64,000 bases of DNA. Origin: Cytophagales bacterium (GTDB lineage Bacteria > Bacteroidota > Bacteroidia > Cytophagales > Thermoflexibacteraceae). How positions within the stretch are numbered: the first letter of the stretch is position 1; every line of letters starts with the position of its first letter. Where the stretch lies: the NCBI GenBank assembly GCA_013299115.1, contig JAAFKA010000004.1:186001-250000 (forward strand), written 5' to 3'. The notes beneath the pieces are model-generated. The model saw only the letters and a program-made list of their open reading frames with translations. It did no database searches and was not told the DNA's origin. Below are positions 7,053 to 40,801 of this stretch, in pieces. Made by a program: the position numbers and the translations under genes.

Positions 7053-9587
7053 CTACCTTTTCAAAAACTCATATTCATACACTTTTTCGGCTATTTTTTC
7101 TCCCAAAACTTGCAAAGCCTCCCGCAAATTACCTATCAATTCATTGTAAGTTTCGTCAGTGCTTTTGTTGTTCATTTTGCCTGCTGCGTTGCGACCTTGA
7201 AAATATTCCCGAATATCATAAAAAGCTGCGTCCACTGCCTTAGTGGGCAAGTTTGCAAGAGGAATTTTATTGATACTCTCGTGATAATATGCCCACAAAG
7301 CCCTACCTGCCGAAAAAACTGCGGTGGCTTCGGGTGAAAACTGCAAAGGTTTTTCAGTGCTTTTTTCCACTTTGTTGAACAAATCGGAAGTTGTGGAAGT
7401 ATCAATTTTGCCTTTTAGGTACTTTGCCATAAAATCACTTTCAAATTTCTGCCTTGCTTTTACTTCGCTTGCAGTGAAAGGAATCCAATGATTTGTACCA
7501 TATTTTGCTTGCATATTATTGGTAAATAAAGTATAAATTAGGCAATTATTTTGAAATTCGGCATCGGTTTCCCAACTTTTATGAGGAAATAAAAATTGGT
7601 CACGGTCATTTACCCACGTTGCAGGAATACACTTGCGGACTGCAAAATAAACACAAGCCACTCCCACATTTTTCTGGTTGATATAAAACTGCCCCGCTGC
7701 CTTGTTATAAATCATTTTGTGATGATTGATTTGGATATTATTTTGAGTTTGAAAATCATTGCCCATAAATGGAAATTTGCCAATTAGTTGATTCTGAGCC
7801 ACATCTGCCCGATAAGGTTTTATCCAATCATTGATATAACCGCCAACTGCCTGCACCTGAATAGTTTTATCTGCTGTTTTTTTGCCTTTTTTGTCATAAA
7901 CTGCTGCCAAAATTGTATCGAATTTTTCTTTTTTGGCTGTATTCCATATATAAAAAGCAATAGGAAACTTACCTGCTACATTGTCAAATGTTTCGGAAGG
8001 AATGATAAACAATTCCTCCAATTTAGCCAAAAAATGTGTTCTAAAATCGGCAAAATGATAGCCTTGCAAGATTTTCAGCTTTGAAAAATTGGCAACCCGA
8101 CAACCCGAAATTTCTTGATAAATCCGAGTAAGAAATTGAGCAAATAATTCTCTGTTGCCCTGCCCCAACAAATGAGCATATTTTTCATTAATCTTAGACT
8201 GTTGCACTCCCGTTTTCGAGGCTTTAAAAAAATCTCTACTGGGTGCTTCTGCATAAGGCGGATTGATATAAATTACCAACTTCTTGCGTTTTTCGGGATG
8301 ATTGATAACCTCTTGCAAGTTTTTTGGCAACTTCTCAAAACTATCATTCAAAAAATCAAATTGAAAAACATTGTCCTCCATTAAATTTGCCCCATTTTGT
8401 ATCCTATCTTTCATCACGTCCACATCTTGCCTGTCCAGCGTAGAAGCCCAAATGTTGTACTTGTTCGTCAGCCCTGTCAGCAAATTGCCTGTACCTGCTG
8501 CACAATCCCAAATATAGTATTCATCTTGCCAATCTTCGCCCAGCACTTTTGCCAAATATTCTTGCGACAACTCCACCCAAATTTGTGGCGTAAAAAAACT
8601 GCCTTTTCTTTCCCTTACATCTTGGGGAACTAACAAATCTCGTCTTTCTACAATATAATCCCAATATTGTTCCTTTGGTGGTCTTTCATACTTGTTCCAA
8701 AATTGGGTGTGTGCCTTTTGCTTGTCGTTGAAAAATGTTTTTCTACTCTGAAACATTCCCATTTCGTCAAGAATTTTGTCTAATTCGTAATAATCTTTTT
8801 TGAGCAACACATACAAATTGTCTTTCAAACTTTCATTCTCTTGCGAAAGCAAATCAGCCAAATAAAAATCTCCGTCTATGATATTATTTTTCTTGGCAAC
8901 TTCCCAATTCAATACGATTGTGGGCTTGACAGCAGCCAACCACTTGGTATAAATCGTAATAAAATTATTTTTGTCAATCCTGATTTTGGAAGTGGCAGCA
9001 TTGCCAATTACAAAATTTGTCTTGATAAATTCTCTAAGTTCTGAGTCGTCTTTTTGGTAGTAAAACAGCAAAGTTTCGTTCTCAATCGTAGTTTTTACCT
9101 TGTCATAAACCTGCTTAAACTCTTTGGTTTCGTGGTTGGAGGGGGCAACATTCCAATTAAAATCATTTTGGTAAAAAACCTCCTGAATGGCATTGTAAGG
9201 CAGAAAAGCAATTTTTTCGGCATCAAAAGCACCCAAAAACGGCGGTGGCAGCACCTTGTCAAAAGTACGAGCCTTGCCAATGGTCAAAATCAACTGCACA
9301 ACAGATTTGTAAACGTCAGATACGCCTTTTTTGGCTTCAGCCCAAAGCCCCCCAGCCCCCAAAGGGGGAGTAGCCCCCCTGCCCCCCAAAGGGGGAGTAA
9401 ATGCGTCAAAAACTCCCCCTTCGGGGGTTTGGGGGGCTACTCCCCCTTTGGGGGGTAGGGGGCTGCTTACACAAAAATCCACATTGCCTACAATGGTTTT
9501 ATAATCAAAATCCGCAAAATAAGTTTCGCCTATTCGGTTTTTTAGTTCTTCTTCTCGAAGAAGGTGTAAATTTTGTTTCATTTGCAT
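7053..9587 (-). CDS. Adenine-specific DNA methyltransferase (Eco57I-like), probably orphan
   Basis: A large (about 844 residues) gamma-type N6-adenine methyltransferase. Motif I is DCAAGTGNLL, preceded by the FFTPQIWV motif X-like stretch, and motif IV is INPPYAEA. The downstream region has the LFAQFLTRIY/FPIAFYIWN layout of Eco57I-like enzymes and a C-terminal part likely for target recognition. No nuclease motif is evident and no restriction gene adjoins, so it may be an orphan or a nuclease-less IIG relative. Starts at 9605, 9587 and 9581 are possible. I use 9587 because 9605 falls within the M28 remnant. A GC-rich palindromic insert of about 40 residues interrupts the N-terminal region in frame. 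Confidence 0.85.
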   Translation of the reverse strand: MQMKQNLHLLREEELKNRIGETYFADFDYKTIVGNVDFCVSSPLPPKGGVAPQTPEGGVFDAFTPPLGGRGATPPLGAGGLWAEAKKGVSDVYKSVVQLILTIGKARTFDKVLPPPFLGAFDAEKIAFLPYNAIQEVFYQNDFNWNVAPSNHETKEFKQVYDKVKTTIENETLLFYYQKDDSELREFIKTNFVIGNAATSKIRIDKNNFITIYTKWLAAVKPTIVLNWEVAKKNNIIDGDFYLADLLSQENESLKDNLYVLLKKDYYELDKILDEMGMFQSRKTFFNDKQKAHTQFWNKYERPPKEQYWDYIVERRDLLVPQDVRERKGSFFTPQIWVELSQEYLAKVLGEDWQDEYYIWDCAAGTGNLLTGLTNKYNIWASTLDRQDVDVMKDRIQNGANLMEDNVFQFDFLNDSFEKLPKNLQEVINHPEKRKKLVIYINPPYAEAPSRDFFKASKTGVQQSKINEKYAHLLGQGNRELFAQFLTRIYQEISGCRVANFSKLKILQGYHFADFRTHFLAKLEELFIIPSETFDNVAGKFPIAFYIWNTAKKEKFDTILAAVYDKKGKKTADKTIQVQAVGGYINDWIKPYRADVAQNQLIGKFPFMGNDFQTQNNIQINHHKMIYNKAAGQFYINQKNVGVACVYFAVRKCIPATWVNDRDQFLFPHKSWETDAEFQNNCLIYTLFTNNMQAKYGTNHWIPFTASEVKARQKFESDFMAKYLKGKIDTSTTSDLFNKVEKSTEKPLQFSPEATAVFSAGRALWAYYHESINKIPLANLPTKAVDAAFYDIREYFQGRNAAGKMNNKSTDETYNELIGNLREALQVLGEKIAEKVYEYEFLKR
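9345..9464 (-). repeat. In-frame GC-rich palindromic element inside the methyltransferase gene
   Basis: A double copy of the SPLxPxGG...GAGGL element, residues about 48-87 counting from the 9605 ATG. The two arms are runs of AGCCCCC...GGGGG and their complements. It keeps the reading frame and encodes a Pro/Gly-rich insert unlike the surrounding protein. Confidence 0.85.
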
Positions 9588-9594
9588 TACTTCT

Positions 9595-9805
9595 TTAAAA
9601 CCCATATTTGTCTATCAAATATACCAAAGCAGCCATGCCCGCAGCCCCCAATTTTTAGTTCACGTTGGTTTACCTTGTCAAATATATCTTGGGTGGTGTG
9701 GTGCAGGTCAAAATAGCGTTGAGAATCGGGAACATAGCCTATCAGCGTAGTGCCTGCTACTTTTAGCGGGGTAATATCTACGTTAGTACCGCCTTTTTGT
9801 GAAAT
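9595..9805 (-). pseudogene. C-terminal remnant of an M28-family aminopeptidase
   Basis: Translating the minus strand from about 9805 gives GGTNVDITPLKVAGTTLIGY, then PDSQRYFDLHHT and DIFDKVNQREL. This is the characteristic end of M28 zinc aminopeptidases, including the HHT metal-binding His. A frameshift follows, after which the other frame gives GAAGMAALVYLIDKYGF and a stop at 9595-9597. Everything N-terminal is missing, and the fragment begins next to the transketolase terminator hairpin. It is a relic of an ancestral gene truncated by a deletion. Confidence 0.85.
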
Positions 9806-17525: not shown

Positions 17526-18182
17526 TTATAAATTCTTATACAATTTCTCCATTTCGTCTTTCAAAAAGAGCAAAACAGCAAACAAATCGAAAATATCATT
17601 TGCCGTAGCCACATAAGGGTTGCTTACAGCATATTGCGACTCCTCCAACAGCACAAAAAACCAATTTCGCCCATTCAAATACACCCCATAAATAGGTTGG
17701 TTGTCCTCGTTAGTCCGTTGAGCAGCCACCATTGCTATCAACAACTGCCCCAATGGGTCATTGTCTTTTTGTTTTTCGGGTTTGTATTCGTGCAAAAAAA
17801 AGTGAGGTTTTTTGGGAGTTTGCAAACCTTTTGCCAGCATAAATTCTACATTGCCTTCGGTAGTTTTGGTATTGTTGTCGTACTGCACCGACAAACTACG
17901 TTGAGTAAAAGCCTTGTAATGTGGGCTGATAAAATTTACCAATTTAAGAAAAGGGCTAATAAAAAAGAATTTGTACTCGTCTTCATTCCAAGTTTCTATG
18001 TAATCAAAAAGTTGCAAACGATATTCGTCTATTTCGGCTCGTTTGGGGTGGTTGGTAGGCAAATGAATGGTGGCTAATTGGTCTAACAAAGGCAAATTTC
18101 GCACCCTTGTCAAGCCAAAAGTGTCGTTTACTTCCTCGTAAGTCCAGCTTTTAAAGGCTTTGGTGGTTTTAATTTTTGTCAT
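17526..18182 (-). CDS. Predicted PD-(D/E)XK-type protein, tandem copy 1
   Basis: A 218-residue protein of unknown function. The layout EGNVEFMLAKG (Glu, about 113-123) followed by PHFFLHEYKPEK (E-x-K) is consistent with a PD-(D/E)XK nuclease-like core, a fold inference and not a family match. From WNEDEYKFFFISPF (about residue 64) to the C-terminus it is almost identical to its neighbour at 18199-18855, with a few conservative changes just after. The central part (residues about 15-60) differs strongly. A 16-nt gap separates the pair, which are probably co-transcribed with the copy at 18199 first. Confidence 0.7.
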   Translation of the reverse strand: MTKIKTTKAFKSWTYEEVNDTFGLTRVRNLPLLDQLATIHLPTNHPKRAEIDEYRLQLFDYIETWNEDEYKFFFISPFLKLVNFISPHYKAFTQRSLSVQYDNNTKTTEGNVEFMLAKGLQTPKKPHFFLHEYKPEKQKDNDPLGQLLIAMVAAQRTNEDNQPIYGVYLNGRNWFFVLLEESQYAVSNPYVATANDIFDLFAVLLFLKDEMEKLYKNL

Positions 18183-18198
18183 TGCTATTTAAAATTTT

Positions 18199-18855
18199 TT
18201 ACAAATTTTTATACAATTTCTCCATTTCGTCTTTCAAAAAGAGCAAAACAGCAAACAAATCGAAAATATCATTTGCCGTAGCCACATAAGGGTTGCTTAC
18301 TGCATATTGCGACTCCTCCAACAGCACAAAAAACCAATTCCGCCCATTCAAATACACCCCATAAATAGGTTGGTTGTCCTCGTTAGTCCGTTGGGCAGCC
18401 ACCATTGCTATTAACAACTGCCCTAATGGGTCATTGTCTTTTTGTTTTTCGGGTTTGTATTCGTGCAAAAAAAAGTGAGGTTTTTTGGGAGTTTGCAAAC
18501 CTTTTGCCAACATAAATTCTACATTGCCTTCGGTAGTTTTGGTATTATTGTCGTATTGCACCGACAAACTACGTTGAGTAAAAGCCTTGTAATGTGGGCT
18601 TACAAACTCGACCAACTGCATAAAAGGGCTAATAAAAAAGAACTTGTACTCGTCTTCATTCCAAGTTTCTATGTACTCCAAAGCCAACCTACGCAACTTT
18701 TCAATTTGTTTATGTTTTTCGTGCATTGCAGGCAAAGTATAAGTAGCCAACTGGTCGAGAAACTGATGCTCGAAAACTCTTTTCAAACCAAAAGTGTCGT
18801 TTACTTCCTCATAAGTCCAGCTTTTAAAAGATTTGTTTGTTTTGGGCTTTGCCAT
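18199..18855 (-). CDS. Predicted PD-(D/E)XK-type protein, tandem copy 2
   Basis: A paralogue of equal length (218 residues) to the gene at 17526-18182. Both open with KAFKSWTYEEVNDTFGL or KSFKSWTYEEVNDTFGL. They then diverge (VFEHQFLDQLATYTLPAMHE here) and converge again at IETWNEDEYKFFF. In the shared C-terminal part only scattered, mostly synonymous nucleotide differences remain. The same HEYKPEK catalytic-like motif is present. Because it is upstream in the transcript it is probably translated first. Function unknown. A conserved core with a changed middle suggests a switched partner or target. Confidence 0.7.
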   Translation of the reverse strand: MAKPKTNKSFKSWTYEEVNDTFGLKRVFEHQFLDQLATYTLPAMHEKHKQIEKLRRLALEYIETWNEDEYKFFFISPFMQLVEFVSPHYKAFTQRSLSVQYDNNTKTTEGNVEFMLAKGLQTPKKPHFFLHEYKPEKQKDNDPLGQLLIAMVAAQRTNEDNQPIYGVYLNGRNWFFVLLEESQYAVSNPYVATANDIFDLFAVLLFLKDEMEKLYKNL

Positions 18856-34165: not shown

Positions 34166-34220
34166 AAAATGATTCGTGAAAGGAATTTTTTCAACTATTG
34201 GCAGGGCAAAAAAGCCACTG

Positions 34221-34322
34221 CCAAAGTTGAAAAAATTCCAAAGTTGAAAAAATTCCAAAGTTGAAAAAACTCCAAAGTTGAAAAAACTCCAAAGTTGAAA
34301 AAACTCCAAAGTTGAAAAAAAT
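34221..34322. repeat. Six tandem 17-bp repeats
   Basis: CCAAAGTTGAAAAAAYT repeats six times with one or two variable bases, immediately downstream of the Vps10-like gene. There are no variable spacers, so it is not a CRISPR. Confidence 0.9.
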
Positions 34323-34325
34323 TAT

Positions 34326-37300
34326 TTACGGAGTTTTCTTTTCCCTTTTTTTCGTCTTTTCCTTTTGGGGTTCAATTTTCAGAGTTTGCTTTTCAGTAAC
34401 ACCATTTGCCGAAATTTCTACGCTATAATCTCCTGCCGACAAATAATATTTTCCGTTTTCAGCTTTTTTGAGCTTATCAAGGTTTTTATCTGTTGTAAAA
34501 TCATAATTTACATAATTCAAACCTTGTTCTGCATCGTCTGTAATTTCCTTTACAATTTCGCCTTTGCTGTTTTTAATGGTAATGCGAAGCCCCCCAGCCC
34601 CCGAAGGGGGAGTTTTTGACGCATCTACGTCAGTTCCCCCTTTGGGGGTTAGGGGGCTTGGGCTTACAAAATAGGTAATTGTCGTTTTTGGCTCATTTAT
34701 ATCTCCCCATTTAGACCAATAAGGTTTTCCCCAATTTTCATTAAAAGTAGTGTTTTGAATAGGGAAAATATGCAATTTTTTTGCCAATAAACTGCTGTCT
34801 AATTGTTGCAAATGCGAAATATCTGCTATGTAAATAGACCTTCCGTGTGTGCCTACAACCATTTCTTTTGCAGTAGCTTGAATAACTAAATCGTGAATGG
34901 CAACATTTGGCAAATTTCCAAAAGGCATAAAATTTTTGCCTCTGTCTAAGGAAACATACAAACCATTATCTGTTCCAACATACAAAATATTTGCATTTTC
35001 GCTGTCCTCACGCACCACATTTACAGGTTCATAAAGCCCCCCAGCCCCCGAAGGGGGAGTTTTGGAGGTATTTATTCCCCCTTCGGGGGTTAGGGGGCTT
35101 ATATTTTTCCACGTTTTGCCATAATTTTCAGACACATAGACATAGCTTTCAAAATTATCCCAACGATAACCATTTAGACTTACATACACACGACTTTCTA
35201 CAAATTTGGAGGCAATTACACGACTTACCCAAAGACCGTCAAGCCCCCCAGCCCCCGAAGGGGGAGTTTTTGACGTATTTTTCCCCCCTTCGGGGGTTAG
35301 GGGGCTTTTTGGTGCTATATTTTCCCAACTATACCCACCATCTTTCGAAACTTGCACCAAACCATCATCAGTTCCTACATATAACAACCCAAAACGTAAT
35401 GGCGACTCGTCAATGGTGGTGATGGTGTGGTAAGGAACATTGCCACTAAGCCCCACCCCAGCCCTCCCCAAAGGGGAGGGAGTTTTTGACGTATTTACGT
35501 CAGTTCCCCCTTTGGGGGTTAGGGGGCTTTCGGGGCTGTTTGTCAAATCTGCTGACAAAGTTTCAAAACTTTCGCCTTTGTTCATACTTCTATGAAAACG
35601 GTGCGAAGCCATATACAAAATGTCTTGATTATGACGTGAAAGTAAAATCGGAGTTTGCCAATTCCAACGGTAAGGAACTTCGCCTAATTCGTGTTTTGGG
35701 GTAATATATTTATTTTCGGCTGTCAATTTATTCACACGAAAATAATTGCCAAATTGATAACCTGTATAAACCGTTGTGTTATCTCTGCTATCAATCTGCA
35801 CCTGCATACCATCACCACCCATAATGCGTTGATAAGGATATTTTCCGTCATCTTGCCAGTCGTTGCTTTGTTTGTAAGTGCTACTTGCCCACCAAACTCC
35901 GTTGTCTTGCAAACCGCCGTAAATATTGTATGGTTTTTCGTTATCAACATTTACCGCATAAAACTGTCCTACGGGTATTGTATTCATTTTCAACCACTTA
36001 GCACCATCATTATACGAAATATTGATGCCGCCATCATTGCCCAAAATCAAATGTTGCGGATTTTTTGGGTTTATCCACAAGGCGTGGTGGTCAGAGTGTG
36101 CATTACTATTGTCAAGACTTTTCCACGTTTTGCCACCATCATTAGACGTAATCACAGGCACACCCATTGTGTAAATTTTATCGGGATTGGTGGGGTGAAC
36201 AAAAATTTGCCCAAAATAATAGCCATAAGTATAAACCAAATCATCAATATAACCTTCGTGAGTTTTTGCCCAAGTCTGCCCACCGTCATTGCTGCGAAAA
36301 ACCTCAAAACCTTTGATTGGCGTATCGAAAAGGTCGTTATTGGCATCTCCACCCAAATAATTGGCTAAGTCTTTTGGTTTTAATTTGCCACTTTTTACCT
36401 TTTCTTTAATCTCTGTTGCGTTATACTTTTGTGGAAATTTATTTTTGTCTAAATAGTTGTTGATGGTGCTGTCGGGTAAGGCAAGGAACTCCGCAGACGA
36501 CAGCCCCCCTACCCCCAAAGGGGGAGTTTTTAGCCCTCCCTTTTGGGGAGGGTTGGGTGGGGCTATTCCCCCTTCGGGGGTTAGGGGGCTTCTTTTATCT
36601 TGATTATCCAAAACAGCATATAAAATATCGCCACTTTCTCCCCCTTTGGGGGGCTGGGGGGCTATGGCAATACCAATTCTTCCTGTACCTTCGGTAGTTG
36701 GAAAGCTGCTCAACTTTGCCCAAGTTTGTCCGCCATCTGTACTTTTGTAGATGCCCGAATTTTTGCCATTCCCTTGAAAATTCCACGCCTTGCGGTTTCT
36801 TTCCCAAGCTGCTGCATAGAGAATATTTGGATTTTTGGGATTAATTACCAAGTCAATAATTCCTGTTTGTTCATTGATAAACAAGGTTTTAGCCCAAGTT
36901 TTGCCACCGTCTGTGGTTTTAAATACGCCTCTTTCTGCATTATCAGAATATAAATGTCCGATAGCTGCCACCCAAGCTATATTTTTGTCGGTTGGGTGCA
37001 AAATCACACGACCAATATGTTGCGTTTCTGCCAATCCGAGATGTTGCCAAGTTTTGCCCTTGTCGTTGCTTTTATAGACACCAGCACCTGCATAAGATGA
37101 CCTGCTGCTGTTATTTTCGCCTGTACCTACCCAAATTTCGGTAGCTTCAAGCCCCCCAGCCCCCGAAGGGGGAGTTTGAACTCCATCCCCTTTGGGGAGG
37201 GTTGGGGTGGGGCTTATTCCCCCTTCGGGGGTTAGGGGGCTACTCCACCTTACCGCAATATCTCCAATCGTCATCACTGCTTGATTATCAAAGAGTGGTG

Positions 37301-37640
37301 TAAATTCGGTAGCATTGCTTTTGGTTTCCCACAAACCACCCGATGCGTAGGCAACAAAAAAATGATTAGGATTTTCGGTATTTACTTCCATATCCACCAC
37401 ACGACCACCCATAATAGTAGGTCCTACATTGCGAAATGGCACATTGCTTACTAAGGAGTTTTTGGCTAATTCTTGTCGAAGTTTGAAACTTTCGAGGCGA
37501 AGTTCGGATTTGGTGGCAAGCCCCACCCCAACCCTCCCCAAAGGGGAGGGAGTTTTTTCTCCCCCTTTGGGGGTTGGGGGGCTTTGTGCAAACAACAAAT
37601 TAGTAGCACATAATAAACTCAATAAAAGTGTTTTGCTCAT
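34326..37640 (-). CDS. Secreted Vps10/BNR-type beta-propeller protein, riddled with in-frame repeats
   Basis: A 1104-residue exported protein with signal peptide MSKTLLLSLLCATNLLFAQ. The propeller repeats are sortilin-like (SxDxGxTW Asp-box): STDGGQTWAKL, TSNDGGKTWKSL, YVSENYGKTWKN. FRNVGPTIMGGRVVDMEV opens the core, as in large Bacteroidota 'glycosyl hydrolase/Vps10' secreted proteins whose ligands are unknown. Eight in-frame GC-rich palindromic inserts swell it and sit mostly in loops. The start codon is part of the boundary module reused across the cassette island to the right. The 3' end abuts six 17-bp repeats. No C-terminal sorting domain was recognised. Confidence 0.88.
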   Translation of the reverse strand: MSKTLLLSLLCATNLLFAQSPPTPKGGEKTPSPLGRVGVGLATKSELRLESFKLRQELAKNSLVSNVPFRNVGPTIMGGRVVDMEVNTENPNHFFVAYASGGLWETKSNATEFTPLFDNQAVMTIGDIAVRWSSPLTPEGGISPTPTLPKGDGVQTPPSGAGGLEATEIWVGTGENNSSRSSYAGAGVYKSNDKGKTWQHLGLAETQHIGRVILHPTDKNIAWVAAIGHLYSDNAERGVFKTTDGGKTWAKTLFINEQTGIIDLVINPKNPNILYAAAWERNRKAWNFQGNGKNSGIYKSTDGGQTWAKLSSFPTTEGTGRIGIAIAPQPPKGGESGDILYAVLDNQDKRSPLTPEGGIAPPNPPQKGGLKTPPLGVGGLSSAEFLALPDSTINNYLDKNKFPQKYNATEIKEKVKSGKLKPKDLANYLGGDANNDLFDTPIKGFEVFRSNDGGQTWAKTHEGYIDDLVYTYGYYFGQIFVHPTNPDKIYTMGVPVITSNDGGKTWKSLDNSNAHSDHHALWINPKNPQHLILGNDGGINISYNDGAKWLKMNTIPVGQFYAVNVDNEKPYNIYGGLQDNGVWWASSTYKQSNDWQDDGKYPYQRIMGGDGMQVQIDSRDNTTVYTGYQFGNYFRVNKLTAENKYITPKHELGEVPYRWNWQTPILLSRHNQDILYMASHRFHRSMNKGESFETLSADLTNSPESPLTPKGGTDVNTSKTPSPLGRAGVGLSGNVPYHTITTIDESPLRFGLLYVGTDDGLVQVSKDGGYSWENIAPKSPLTPEGGKNTSKTPPSGAGGLDGLWVSRVIASKFVESRVYVSLNGYRWDNFESYVYVSENYGKTWKNISPLTPEGGINTSKTPPSGAGGLYEPVNVVREDSENANILYVGTDNGLYVSLDRGKNFMPFGNLPNVAIHDLVIQATAKEMVVGTHGRSIYIADISHLQQLDSSLLAKKLHIFPIQNTTFNENWGKPYWSKWGDINEPKTTITYFVSPSPLTPKGGTDVDASKTPPSGAGGLRITIKNSKGEIVKEITDDAEQGLNYVNYDFTTDKNLDKLKKAENGKYYLSAGDYSVEISANGVTEKQTLKIEPQKEKTKKREKKTP
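34588..34659 (-). repeat. In-frame palindromic element, site 1 in the Vps10-like gene
   Basis: Encodes SPLTPKGGTDVDASKTPPSG then AGGL, near the C-terminus between VSP and RITIKN. About 72 nt, frame kept. Confidence 0.9.
35035..35100 (-). repeat. In-frame palindromic element, site 2
   Basis: A 66-nt copy encoding SPLTPEGGINTSKTPPSGAG then GL, between KTWKNI and YEPVNVV. The arms are AGCCCCCTAACCCCCG and its near complement. Confidence 0.9.
35242..35307 (-). repeat. In-frame palindromic element, site 3
   Basis: A 66-nt copy encoding SPLTPEGGKNTSKTPPSGAG then GL, between WENIAPK and DGLWVSRV. Confidence 0.9.
35449..35529 (-). repeat. In-frame palindromic element, site 4 (longer variant)
   Basis: Encodes SPLTPKGGTDVNTSKTPSPL then GRAGVGL. 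The right arm carries the CCCACCCCAGCCCTCCCC variant in place of the plain GC arm. Confidence 0.85.
36502..36591 (-). repeat. In-frame palindromic element, site 5 (double)
   Basis: A compound copy encoding SPLTPEGGIAPPNPPQKGGL then KTPPLGVGGL. Two overlapping elements seem to have inserted. Confidence 0.85.
36638..36662 (-). repeat. In-frame palindromic element, site 6 (short)
   Basis: A half-size copy encoding APQPPKGGES. It is only 25 nt and probably a deletion derivative. Confidence 0.7.
37150..37241 (-). repeat. In-frame palindromic element, site 7 (double)
   Basis: Encodes SPLTPEGGISPTPTLPKGDG then VQTPPSGAGGL, about 30 codons, between VRWS and EATEIWVG. Confidence 0.85.
37519..37584 (-). 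repeat. In-frame palindromic element, site 8, next to the signal peptide
   Basis: Encodes SPPTPKGGEKTPSPLGRVGV then GLA, right after the predicted signal-peptidase site (FAQ). Confidence 0.85.
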
Positions 37641-37680: not shown

Positions 37681-37762
37681 AATTAGAAAGTTTACCTATT
37701 TAATATAGTTGCTTTTTAGCAAAAAAATATACTATTTGCCAAAAATCACAACTACAAAACCA

Positions 37763-40700
37763 ATGCAAGCCATAAATTTCTACAAAAAAGAATTAGCAAA
37801 CCTCAAAAGTGTAAATATGAACCTCTCTGAAAGTTCGTATAGGACAGCCTTTGAAAATTTGTTAAATGGTTTTGCAAAGGAAACAAAATCAGAGGTAAAA
37901 ATATTTCAAGAAATAGCAAAAAAAACTCCCACTTCGGGGGCTGGGGGGCTTATTATTCCAGATTTTACTTGTATTTCGGCTAATAATTTGGGTACAATAG
38001 GTTTTGTAGAAACAAAAGAGGCTGGTTTTGATATAGAAACTCACATAGAAAGTGAGCAAATAAAAAAATACAGGGCTGTTTGTGATAATATTTTATTGAC
38101 AAATTACACACAGTTTATTTGGCTTAATCAAGACACAAAACAGTTTGCAAGTATTGAAAATGAAGTAGCTATAACAACTTTATTCAATAATTTTTTAGAA
38201 CAACAACCTCCAAAAATATACGAGCCTAAAAAATTAGCGGAATATTTAGCAAGGTATAGCAAAGCACTAAAAAATGAATTACATCAAGAAATTGAAAAAG
38301 CTGTAACAGCAACCAAAGGACAAAACTCTGTATTGTTTGGAATTTTTGAGGTTTTTCGCACGTCTTTATTTGGTATTGATTATGAACAATTTGCTGATGC
38401 TTTTGCACAAATGACTGCCTTTGGTTTTATGATAGCCAAATTAAATAATCCTGATGAAGTAATTACACTGCACAATGTTAGAAAATCTATCCCTACATCT
38501 TTTGGTTTAATCAAAGAATTATTAAGATATGTGGAAGATATTACAGATAAAAAAACAAATGCAGAACTCTACGTAAGTCAGTTATTGGGCTTAATGAATA
38601 ATATGTATGTGGAAGGTATAGAACGACAACTTTTTACACGAAAAACACAAGAAGTTAGTCTTTTTGGAGAAGTACATACGCAATATATTGACCCTTTTGT
38701 CTATTTTTATGAAGATTATTTAGGAGAATATGACAAGGCTTTGCGAAAAGCAAAAGGAGTTTATTATACACCTATGCCTGTTGTGCAGTTAATTATTCGG
38801 TTGATAGACAAGAGTTTACAAGAAAATTTTGGATTGACAAAAGGCATTGCAGATAAAAATGTGAATACCTTAGATTTTGCTTGTGGTACAGGAACTTTTA
38901 TGGTCGAATATGCTGCACAGGCTTTAAACAAGCAAAGCAAAGATTTGCGAAAACCCGCCATTCAACAAAGATTATTACCAAATCTTTATGGTTTTGAATA
39001 TTTGGCTGCACCTTATACAGTAGCTATTTTGAAAATGTCGCAATTTTTAAAGAAAAATTATGACTATAATTTGGTAGAAAATGACAAAATTAACATAAAA
39101 CTTACAAACACCTTAGAAGACACCCCGACAAATATTAGTTTCGTTTTTCCACACATTACCCAAGAAATGAATGATGCCAATGCAATAAAAAAGCAAAACA
39201 TTTTGGTCGTAATGGGAAATCCGCCTTACTCCGTAAGTTCCGACAATAAGAGTGAGCATATTATGAACTTGATAGCGGACTATAAAAGTGCAAAAGGCGA
39301 AGCAAACAGAGATAAAAGTGTGAATGCCTTGAGTGATGATTATGTAAAATTTATACGTTTTGCACACGATAAAATTAGCAAGCAAAAGAAAGGAATGATA
39401 GGAATTATTACCAATAATTCTTACTTAGATGGCATTGTACATAAAACAATGCGTGAAAAGTTATTGCAAGATTTTGATAAAATTTATATTATCAATTTGC
39501 ACGGAAATTCTTTGAGAAAAGAAGGAGATAAAAATGTTTTTGATATTCGTGTGGGCGTATGTATTACGCTATTTCTCAAATTGGAAAACCGACTGCCTGC
39601 CGACAAAAAAGAAGTTTATTATTACTCTACCTTAGAAAATAATTTGATAAGCCGAGAACAAAAATATGATTTTGCCGAAAAAATTTATGACAATTTAGCA
39701 CAAAAAAACATAGCCGAAAGTCTTACTTGGACAAAACTTAGCCCACAAGCACCGCATTTTTTCTTTGTCCCAAAAAATTTGAGTCAACAACAGGATTATA
39801 ATAAATTTTGGAGTTTGAAAGAGATTTTCTCACAATACTCAAGTGGTATTAAAACTCATAGGGATAATTTTTTAATTGATACTAACCAACAAGTATTGGA
39901 AAGTAGGATAGAAAAATTTTATGCAAAAGATGGTAATATAATTACAAAATATAATTTAAAGGATAATAGAGATTGGAAGATAGAAACAGCACAAAAAGAA
40001 GGTTCTTTTGATAAAAGAAATACGCAGTTATATTATTATAGACCTTTTGATATTAGATATTTACATTATGATTTAAAACTTTGTGAATCACATAGGTTTG
40101 ACATAATGCAACATTTTATTAAAGGAGCTAATTTAGGTATTTGTTTTTCAAGAAATACACATACAAAAAAATGGAATGAAATATTAGTAACTAACCAATT
40201 AATGGATATTCATTCTATTGGGGCTCAATCTTATATTACTCCCTTATACCGTTATGAAAAGGCAATAGGCGAAAAAGGTATTGAAATAATTAGCAAAACC
40301 GAAAATTTGAGTAAAAAATTTCGTCAATTTATTAACGAAACTTACGGAGAAAATATCACAGCCGAACAAATTTTTGGCTATATTTATGCAGTTTTATATT
40401 CGCCTGAATACAGAGAACAATATAATGAACTGTTGCGAATAGATTTTCCACGTATTCCATTTTCAGAGTCCTTGCAAGGTTTTCAAAACCTTGCAAGGAC
40501 TGGCTGGGAATTGGCACAAATGCACTTGTTACAAAAAATTCCAAATTTAGATATTGCCGATTTTGTAGGTGAAAATCGCAAAGTAATAAAAGTTTTTTGG
40601 CAAAATGACAAATTGTATATCAATCCTGTTTCATATTTTAGTGGTGTAAGCAAAGCTGTTTTTGATTATGAAATTGGTTCTTATCAAGTTTTGCACAAAT

Positions 40701-40801
40701 ATTTGAAAGATAGAAACGAAGAAGTTTTGAGTTTAGACGAAATTGAACATTTGCAAAATGTGATAAAAGTGTTGGCAAAAACGGTGGAGTTTGGAGGTTG
40801 A
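37763..40801 (+). CDS. Type ISP (single-polypeptide) restriction-modification enzyme
   Basis: About 1012 residues from the preferred ATG (37763, MQAINFYKKEL). The upstream frame begins at a TTG. Type ISP/IIG-like enzymes combine cleavage, methylation and target recognition. The N-terminal nuclease-like part has FVETKEAGFDIETHIESEQIKKY (E-T-K motif). The methyltransferase core has motif I LDFACGTGTFMVEYA and motif IV VVMGNPPYSVSS. The C-terminal specificity region ends in LKDRNEEVLSLDEIEHLQNV. A half-size palindromic element adds TPTSGAGGL in frame near residue 70. A 17-bp perfect palindrome lies in the C-terminal coding region. It is the first gene of the cassette island, and its stop TGA lies in a boundary module. 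Confidence 0.92.
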   Translation: MQAINFYKKELANLKSVNMNLSESSYRTAFENLLNGFAKETKSEVKIFQEIAKKTPTSGAGGLIIPDFTCISANNLGTIGFVETKEAGFDIETHIESEQIKKYRAVCDNILLTNYTQFIWLNQDTKQFASIENEVAITTLFNNFLEQQPPKIYEPKKLAEYLARYSKALKNELHQEIEKAVTATKGQNSVLFGIFEVFRTSLFGIDYEQFADAFAQMTAFGFMIAKLNNPDEVITLHNVRKSIPTSFGLIKELLRYVEDITDKKTNAELYVSQLLGLMNNMYVEGIERQLFTRKTQEVSLFGEVHTQYIDPFVYFYEDYLGEYDKALRKAKGVYYTPMPVVQLIIRLIDKSLQENFGLTKGIADKNVNTLDFACGTGTFMVEYAAQALNKQSKDLRKPAIQQRLLPNLYGFEYLAAPYTVAILKMSQFLKKNYDYNLVENDKINIKLTNTLEDTPTNISFVFPHITQEMNDANAIKKQNILVVMGNPPYSVSSDNKSEHIMNLIADYKSAKGEANRDKSVNALSDDYVKFIRFAHDKISKQKKGMIGIITNNSYLDGIVHKTMREKLLQDFDKIYIINLHGNSLRKEGDKNVFDIRVGVCITLFLKLENRLPADKKEVYYYSTLENNLISREQKYDFAEKIYDNLAQKNIAESLTWTKLSPQAPHFFFVPKNLSQQQDYNKFWSLKEIFSQYSSGIKTHRDNFLIDTNQQVLESRIEKFYAKDGNIITKYNLKDNRDWKIETAQKEGSFDKRNTQLYYYRPFDIRYLHYDLKLCESHRFDIMQHFIKGANLGICFSRNTHTKKWNEILVTNQLMDIHSIGAQSYITPLYRYEKAIGEKGIEIISKTENLSKKFRQFINETYGENITAEQIFGYIYAVLYSPEYREQYNELLRIDFPRIPFSESLQGFQNLARTGWELAQMHLLQKIPNLDIADFVGENRKVIKVFWQNDKLYINPVSYFSGVSKAVFDYEIGSYQVLHKYLKDRNEEVLSLDEIEHLQNVIKVLAKTVEFGG
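37925..37951 (+). repeat. In-frame half palindromic element in the restriction-modification gene
   Basis: CTCCCACTTCGGGGGCTGGG plus a GGCTT tail encodes TPTSGAGGL, in the same translational orientation as the Vps10-gene copies. Only the right half of the element is present. Confidence 0.85.
40467..40501. repeat. Perfect 17-bp palindrome inside the restriction-modification gene
   Basis: AGTCCTTGCAAGGTTTT, a central C, then its exact complement. It encodes ESLQGFQNLART, a stretch that also aligns with the family. The paralogue at about 51129-51163 has a mismatched left arm (TCTTTGCAAGAATTT). Confidence 0.9.

Follow-up and report, generated by a model that had tools for sequence, protein, structure and literature searches.

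Rickettsia palindromic elements (RPEs) were reportedly described by Ogata et al. They are palindromes of about 150 bp that lie in frame in unrelated protein genes (PMC10969869). Repetitive extragenic palindromes (REPs) of the GTAG and CGTC types have also been described within genes of several species, where they form head-to-head dimers around a conserved spacer, some of them in open reading frames (ORFs) and with DNA-repair genes among the hosts; no dedicated transposase was found for the CGTC repeats (PMC3733652). Here we analyze a window, that is, a whole stretch of 64,000 nucleotides from a Cytophagales bacterium of the Thermoflexibacteraceae (assembly GCA_013299115.1, contig JAAFKA010000004.1, positions 186,001 to 250,000), in which GC-rich palindromes occur in frame within a Vps10-like gene. 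A sequence-only reading of this window, made without database searches, had named RPEs as the only comparable case known to it, a view that, as stated, the intragenic REPs do not support. Like RPEs, the present element is a palindrome in frame in unrelated protein genes and tolerated by its hosts; it differs in its phylum, in its length (about 24–96 nt), in its modular half-units and in having a nuclease-bearing full form, a separation drawn on these features. With the GTAG/CGTC REPs it shares head-to-head dimers with a conserved spacer, residence of some copies in ORFs, and uvrA as a host, but it has 5-bp C/G stems ending in GGGGGCTT, instead of the 8–9 bp stem starting with A/T and the CCA tail that define the CGTC type. 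We consider it probable that the palindromes of the window are non-autonomous forms, resembling miniature inverted-repeat transposable elements (MITEs), of a mobile element built as palindrome arm, DUF559 frame and palindrome arm.

The host gene in the window (34326–37640, minus strand) encodes a Sortilin/Vps10-BNR-like protein of 1104 aa, as judged from the ORF list, orthologues and Pfam (Sortilin-Vps10, E 6e-29), and direct reading of the letters bears out the earlier statement that it contains eight GC-rich palindromic inserts, all in frame. These lie on the same strand as the gene and comprise an insert of left arm, core TGACGTAGATGCGTCA and right arm at 34588–34659 (SPLTPKGGTDVDASKTPPSGAGGL), absent from 11 aligned relatives and from the same-genus genome G001; two 66-nt inserts at 35035–35100 (SPLTPEGGINTSKTPPSGAGGL) and 35242–35307 (SPLTPEGGKNTSKTPPSGAGGL); an insert with one type-B arm at 35449–35529 (SPLTPKGGTDVNTSKTPSPLGRAGVGL), whose site is empty in G001 and the 11 relatives; a double form at 36502–36591 (SPLTPEGGIAPPNPPQKGGLKTPPLGVGGL) and a single half-unit, APQPPKGG, at 36640–36663, both placed by direct reading and alignment; a further double form at 37150–37241 (SPLTPEGGISPTPTLPKGDGVQTPPSGAGGL); and, after residue 19 near the N-terminus, an insert at 37519–37584 (SPPTPKGGEKTPSPLGRVGVGL) that G001 does not have. 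In the G001 orthologue three of the eight sites (35035, 35242 and 37150) are filled, with different letters, and none of the eight inserts occurs in the 11 relatives (20 loci were fetched, 11 besides G001 were aligned, and L312–L318 were left out). The 66-nt copies and the long double forms are where the sequence-only reading had placed them. Its common translation, SPLTPxGG...TPPSGAGGL, holds for some inserts but fails for 36640, for 35449 and 37519, which finish in TPSPLGRxGVG, and for 36502, which reads SPLTPEGG..TPPLGVGGL. An automatic cluster finder counts seven clusters in this gene, missing an arm at 36502 and merging 36568–36663, and a GC-motif search of the window gives 26 matches, of which some overlap, where shuffled sequences average 0.07.

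The nuclease-bearing form, which was out of reach of the sequence-only reading, occurs in frame inside conserved enzymes. When host proteins are compared, the ValRS of a Prevotellaceae record (L174) has its palindrome arms about 120 aa or more apart, as does, at two places, the MetH of a Flavobacterium (L215), and Pfam assigns the segment between the separated arms to DUF559, a Vsr-like nuclease. The one DUF559 match (PF04480) found in the source genome itself lies in frame within a 1450-aa metH ORF, between palindrome units (L409, half-units at -126, -97, -15 and +385 nt). A profile of four DUF559 copies added LeuRS of genome G031, MutS of G001 and another MetH (L233) as hosts, and seven in-frame copies were read in all (four in MetH and one each in ValRS, LeuRS and MutS), six of them from other Bacteroidota; the domain is confirmed by Pfam in six of the seven, with L233 resting on our own profile. 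GC-rich palindromes flank all seven copies on both sides, five being of the C/G type and two of a CTCTCC type, and every copy has a flanking-palindrome score above the 95th percentile of controls. A putative autonomous relative with the same ends, as expected for a MITE, is therefore present in the five copies with C/G ends. In the source MetH the domain sits inside S-methyl_trans. L215 has it both inside Met_synt_B12 and between two B12-binding domains; in ValRS and LeuRS it lies inside tRNA-synt_1, and in MutS inside MutS_III. On solved structures, the ValRS insert maps between residues 205 and 207 of 1gax, and the insert of the source MetH maps between positions 214 and 221 of 9ssp. Inteins likewise place a nuclease-bearing segment in frame in essential enzymes, but no splicing domain appears among the Pfam matches (E ≤ 0.001) of the five host proteins scanned here. 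As separate observations, the MutS frame of G001 (L353, 11178–14468) has its Vsr-like DUF559 in frame inside MutS domain III between CTCTCC-type palindromes, and a ValRS frame of the source genome (L139, 1922–5470, C56) opens with an RloB-like domain (aa 23–222), reflecting either a fusion or a missing stop.

Full and mini forms also occupy the same protein loops in different lineages. In the MetH loop before the ATVKGDVHD motif, which we take to be the cobalamin-binding motif, L215 and L233 have the full form, and the source genome and Aequorivita todarodis (L166) have the mini form. L174 has the full form in one ValRS loop where the source genome and G031 have the mini form, one LeuRS loop holds mini forms in the latter two, and one loop of an ORF that by eye resembles a restriction methylase is filled in the source genome (twice), G031, G041 and L164. 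With the inserts masked, sites coincide in 34 of 77 testable pairs, where roughly 6.6 would be expected; leaving aside pairs between the source genome and G001, 22 remain, in about seven distinct loops. Rhs-like hosts (recognized by motif), sites within 12 aa of the start and loci below 1500 bases were dropped from these tests, the masked version of which used all 109 stretches from the scan of named genomes and the unmasked version 80 of them.

The nuclease belongs to a family with homing members. Compared with known structures, the four-copy profile matches 3hrl (E 4e-27) and 3r3p (E 3e-5), the latter annotated as a mobile intron protein. The predicted fold (mean pLDDT, the predicted local distance difference test, 77.9 over four sequences) returns 3hrl first in Foldseek, I-Bth0305I at rank 2–3 and Vsr weakly; its core blocks are modeled at pLDDT 73–92 and the palindrome-coded ends below 50. 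The match to 3r3p and the Foldseek rank together place the domain with homing-family nucleases. The EDxHD/Vsr-like I-Bth0305I (3r3p; PMC3943268) is similar in having a related catalytic domain, by profile and predicted fold, and in its residence in conserved genes, but no intron or intein is seen here, the nuclease being a domain of the host frame between DNA palindromes. The two DUF559 copies in the single MetH of L215 differ by 0.10 nonsynonymous (dN) and 0.95 synonymous (dS) substitutions per site, and the nuclease was therefore kept there by purifying selection. Among 395 Bacteroidota genomes the profile has a match in 177. The matches are described here by frame length: the best 24 all sit in frames of 425–1456 aa, and of 150 rows among the matches listed, 50 lie in frames of at least 350 aa, 99 in frames of at most 220 aa and one between.

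Beyond these hosts, 23 further DUF559 loci (three on viral contigs and 20 in plasmid records) were analyzed, and the same GC-rich palindrome lies on both sides in 13, every one of which exceeds the 95th percentile of the scores from 180 control windows placed in these loci. The control-window test covered 20 of 40 plasmid records with a match, and includes L415 and L419, which are one species and both negative. An ORF of Pseudanabaena galeata that has an Eco57I-type methylase domain also contains DUF559 in frame. Tentatively, and with some doubt, we propose that these loci belong to a widespread and undescribed mobile class, in which a DUF559 nuclease between GC-rich palindromes homes in frame as an unspliced extra domain, its ends being the palindromes of the window; DUF559 might then be the mobilizer so far missing for numerous orphan REP-like palindromes across Bacteroidota, Cyanobacteria, Alphaproteobacteria and Deinococcota. 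While palindromes in genes have precedents in the intragenic REPs and RPEs, the link to a nuclease was not found in the literature searched. In the open-access papers covered, with most subscription papers lying outside that scope, we found no description of DUF559 as lying between palindromes of this kind or in frame within enzymes. Among papers naming DUF559 (including PMC12907096), none concerns in-frame insertion or palindromes by its title or the start of its abstract, and by title no open-access paper among those listed joins DUF559 or Vsr with palindromes. The papers that contain literal peptide or DNA strings of the element are, to judge by title, unrelated.

The anatomy of the C/G palindrome is modular. 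From 40 alignable short head-to-head pairs, we read the full unit as AAGCCCCCTAACCCCCRAAGGGGGAA, a core around TGACG(T)AAATACGTCA(AAAA), and CTCCCCCTTYGGGGGYTGGGGGGCTT, probably about 66–72 nt in all, with a core that varies between copies; TGACG..CGTCA is present in the core of many full pairs. The arms differ from each other, TAA being frequent in the left and CAG or CAA usual in the right, and a longer type B arm (CCTCCCCTTTGGGGAGGG...) is mixed with the usual type. The outer ends read GGGGGCT; of 128 ends, 75% have T as the next base, and further out no base is clearly preferred. Single half-units also exist, most of which have CT or TT ahead of the C run and lack the unpaired GTAG or CGTC tag that marks one end of such REPs. 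Folded as single-stranded DNA, four inserts of the window (one on both strands) reach z-scores of -3.4 to -6.7, with 0, 0, 0, 0 and 1 of 200 shuffles folding as well, while a single 29-nt unit folds no better than chance (z +0.17). An Rfam search of the element gave only matches far below the families' own thresholds.

Throughout the 5.50-Mb source genome (74 contigs) there are 245 half-units at up to three mismatches, against one for a reversed-pattern control. Detailed counts come from 685 kb, made up of the window and 67 stretches around listed matches, with at least 218 half-units in at least 126 clusters; the clusters are those within about 4.5 kb of listed matches, weaker copies are missing, and the unit finder is not fully sensitive, having overlooked in L101 two units that it detected in the identical DNA of L409. 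Relative to ORFs of at least 100 aa, 109 of the 126 clusters are fully inside, 11 between and six partial. The coding fraction of the same DNA under the same ORF model is 0.870, and genes are therefore not avoided. Merging clusters with similar flanks leaves 91 groups (78 inside, nine between, four partial), of which 70 pass a stricter rule. On average 4.19 of the six frames are open across a cluster, and the phases are used 77:29:3, where even use of the open frames predicts 50:35:24; none of 20,000 simulations, which take clusters as independent although paralogues are not, was as extreme on either count, and after merging the phases remain 54:22:2. The outcome that the sequence-only reading had named as speaking against it, most copies lying outside genes or in any frame, is thus not what the sampled part contains, and its proposal of a mobile-type palindrome that enters proteins in frame as RPEs do is supported by the ORF and phase counts. 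Hosts named by Pfam include MetH, ValRS, LeuRS, UvrA, SMC and Tex, the search having been run on 10 of 77 host ORFs of this genome, two without a match; the remaining hosts are unnamed or named by eye.

The frame bias favors peptides rich in proline, glycine, serine and threonine (P/G/S/T), as it would if the inserts were kept for a benefit to the protein, either as flexible linkers or as surface variation. Purifying selection predicts the same bias, however, and the hosts are unrelated housekeeping and accessory proteins with orthologues that do without the inserts, so that we regard such a benefit as a highly improbable cause. Beside these counts, five Rhs-like ORFs (L127, L128, L132, L133 and L142, on C41, C47 and C59 of the source genome) carry an identical half-unit at one conserved point, and 13 clusters with similar flanks in Rhs-like ORFs were merged as one group.

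Of the 59 genomes searched, the source genome included, 10 have any unit at up to two mismatches: 214 in the source genome (G000), 72 in G031, 56 in G041, 20 in G046, 19 in G001 and one or two in each of the other five. A scan of named genomes shows, among the matches listed, Flavobacterium, Lutibacter, Salegentibacter, Aequorivita, Prevotellaceae, Cytophagales and others. In other Bacteroidota the unit lies mostly outside genes, with 37 of 112 clusters inside ORFs, 49 between and 26 partial (80 of 109 stretches, dropping loci below 1500 bases and clusters within 150 nt of a locus end), and with 12 of 36 inside in G041 and 12 of 40 in G031. Such a distribution is what a unit acting mainly as an RNA hairpin or terminator-like intergenic element, present in genes by accident, would produce. 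That explanation is already hard to hold for the source genome, in which ORFs contain 109 of the 126 clusters and copies within genes stay in frame; G001 likewise has 12 of 16 inside (20 stretches of that genome), and we give the idea very little credence. Compared with G001 proteins, many of 49 sites, the window's own included, have no insert there, UvrA (L109) and the SMC hinge (L121) being examples, and some are filled in both genomes, as in L104 at 91% identity; the comparison includes several low-identity, non-orthologous pairs that say little.

Two other features of the window contain the unit. A single half-unit, TPTSGAGGL (37928–37950, plus strand), lies in frame in the neighboring Type ISP restriction-methylase gene (37709–40801), and a triple-unit insert (9346–9464, minus strand) lies in frame in an 850-aa ORF without a Pfam name (7053–9605). 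The latter ORF is one of a paralogous set, across which different forms fill an identical site. Such differing fillings at one site, in these paralogues and in G001, together with mosaic arms and sites that resemble replacement instead of addition, are what one would expect if the palindromes needed no enzyme of their own to spread and relied on hairpin-primed template switching or on gene conversion among copies. This would leave unexplained both the DUF559 frames between like palindromes in several phyla and the coincidence of loops across lineages, and we judge it improbable. Elsewhere in the window, a short AT-rich unit of the CCAAAGTTGAAAAAACT type is repeated in tandem just downstream of the Vps10-like gene (34216–34325), and 17526–18182 and 18199–18855 are a tandem pair of similar 218-aa ORFs with long identical stretches.

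REPs are known to be moved in trans by Y1 transposases, the REP-associated tyrosine transposases (RAYTs), and in such REPtrons, as in MITE families, an enzyme gene lies between palindromes with short non-autonomous copies elsewhere. The present arrangement is alike in this, but its enzyme is the Vsr-like DUF559 and not an HUH tyrosine transposase. If the C/G palindromes were REPs of this kind, the link to DUF559 would be secondary. RAYT-like genes are present in the genome, the dimer architecture of two inverted units and a core resembles REPs and bacterial interspersed mosaic elements, and at least five of the 10 Y1/RAYT loci examined (L080–L082, L389–L395) have palindromes on both sides. These palindromes are other than the C/G type, however. 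No C/G unit occurs within about 1.5 kb on each side in L080–L082, the nearest known unit being about 1.5 kb from L082, and none in the loci of eight RAYT genes found by a motif scan of 3.4 Mb, which covers distances to about 1.5 kb and did not pick up L394 and L395. Genome G041 has 56 units and nothing that matches the RAYT protein of L082 at E ≤ 0.001, and the loops shared by full and mini forms involve DUF559, not RAYT. A RAYT as the direct partner was thus set aside, none of the 10 loci being flanked by the C/G palindrome, and as a general explanation of the family we consider RAYT mobilization unlikely.

Several palindrome families nevertheless behave alike in these proteins. In one restriction-type ORF, a single loop holds a palindrome of the RAYT-flanking family R82 in the source genome (L107, 1471–1499, C15) and a C/G unit in G001 and G041 (L269, L281); with several families found in frame, proteins here therefore seem to accept several kinds of palindrome. 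The in-frame translations are LSGGSKPPD for R82, FPSLKDLES for R390 and NLIRFLKPYKV for R391. Three RAYT-like genes (L082 1209–1907, L390 and L391, on C11, C16 and C74) lie between their own palindromes, the L389 ORF that hosts another palindrome family in frame is AlaRS-like by eye, and the RAYT of L393 (1240–2220, C24) has nested flanking palindromes whose loop, TTTACGTCAAAAAA, is close to the core of the C/G element.

Several points weigh against a nuclease-driven mobile element. The RAYT-flanking families R82, R390 and R391 are also in frame within ORFs, although some of the counted matches are chance half-matches, and in-frame residence alone therefore does not point to DUF559; the C/G family might also borrow a RAYT. 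One DUF559 was found in the source genome against over 200 half-units. Ten of the 23 further DUF559 loci have no shared flanking palindrome, and synonymous change is high to saturated in most other nuclease pairs, limiting the argument from selection to the L215 pair. As for the shared loops, the unmasked site test (39 of 120 against 5.8) may be inflated by arm-to-arm alignment, which masking removes, many coinciding pairs repeat one and the same loop, host pairs were found through element-carrying loci, and transfer of host genes between lineages may be the source. A few small units replace loop residues instead of being cleanly added (L094 and L091 against G001). Alignment to insert-free homologues, proposed in the sequence-only reading as a way to exact target sites, yielded empty sites in proteins, but no exact empty site or target duplication was found at the DNA level; in a joined-flank search for empty sites, the matches listed were mostly self or filled paralogues. 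The direction could be the reverse, a nuclease gene landing in a palindrome. Finally, mobility and mechanism, transposition and cleavage included, are inferred from the comparison of sequences.

If the DUF559-bearing element is mobile as we propose, the following mechanism may be envisaged. The nuclease, translated as a segment of the host protein, would cut empty sites or palindromes, and repair after cutting would copy the element in, in a homing-like manner. The ends would serve twice, folding as DNA hairpins and encoding flexible P/G/S/T-rich linkers. Because of these linkers, an insertion of 3n bases into an open frame and a surface loop would be tolerated, with no splicing needed. Internal deletion of the full form would leave palindromes of 66–72 bp or single half-units of 24–27 nt, mini forms that might still spread in trans, while selection would keep the P/G/S/T-rich frame and remove frameshifts. 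The palindromes in the Vps10-like protein would then be nuclease-less remnants.

How palindromic repeats without a RAYT are moved, and by what route protein-coding palindromes get into genes, are questions that date back to the Rickettsia elements. A nuclease between like palindromes in MetH, ValRS, LeuRS and MutS makes the question of the mobilizer testable with one enzyme and few target sites. If the proposal is true, a selfish nuclease domain can reside unspliced in essential enzymes, and proline- and glycine-rich inserts of bacterial proteins can be scars of such elements.

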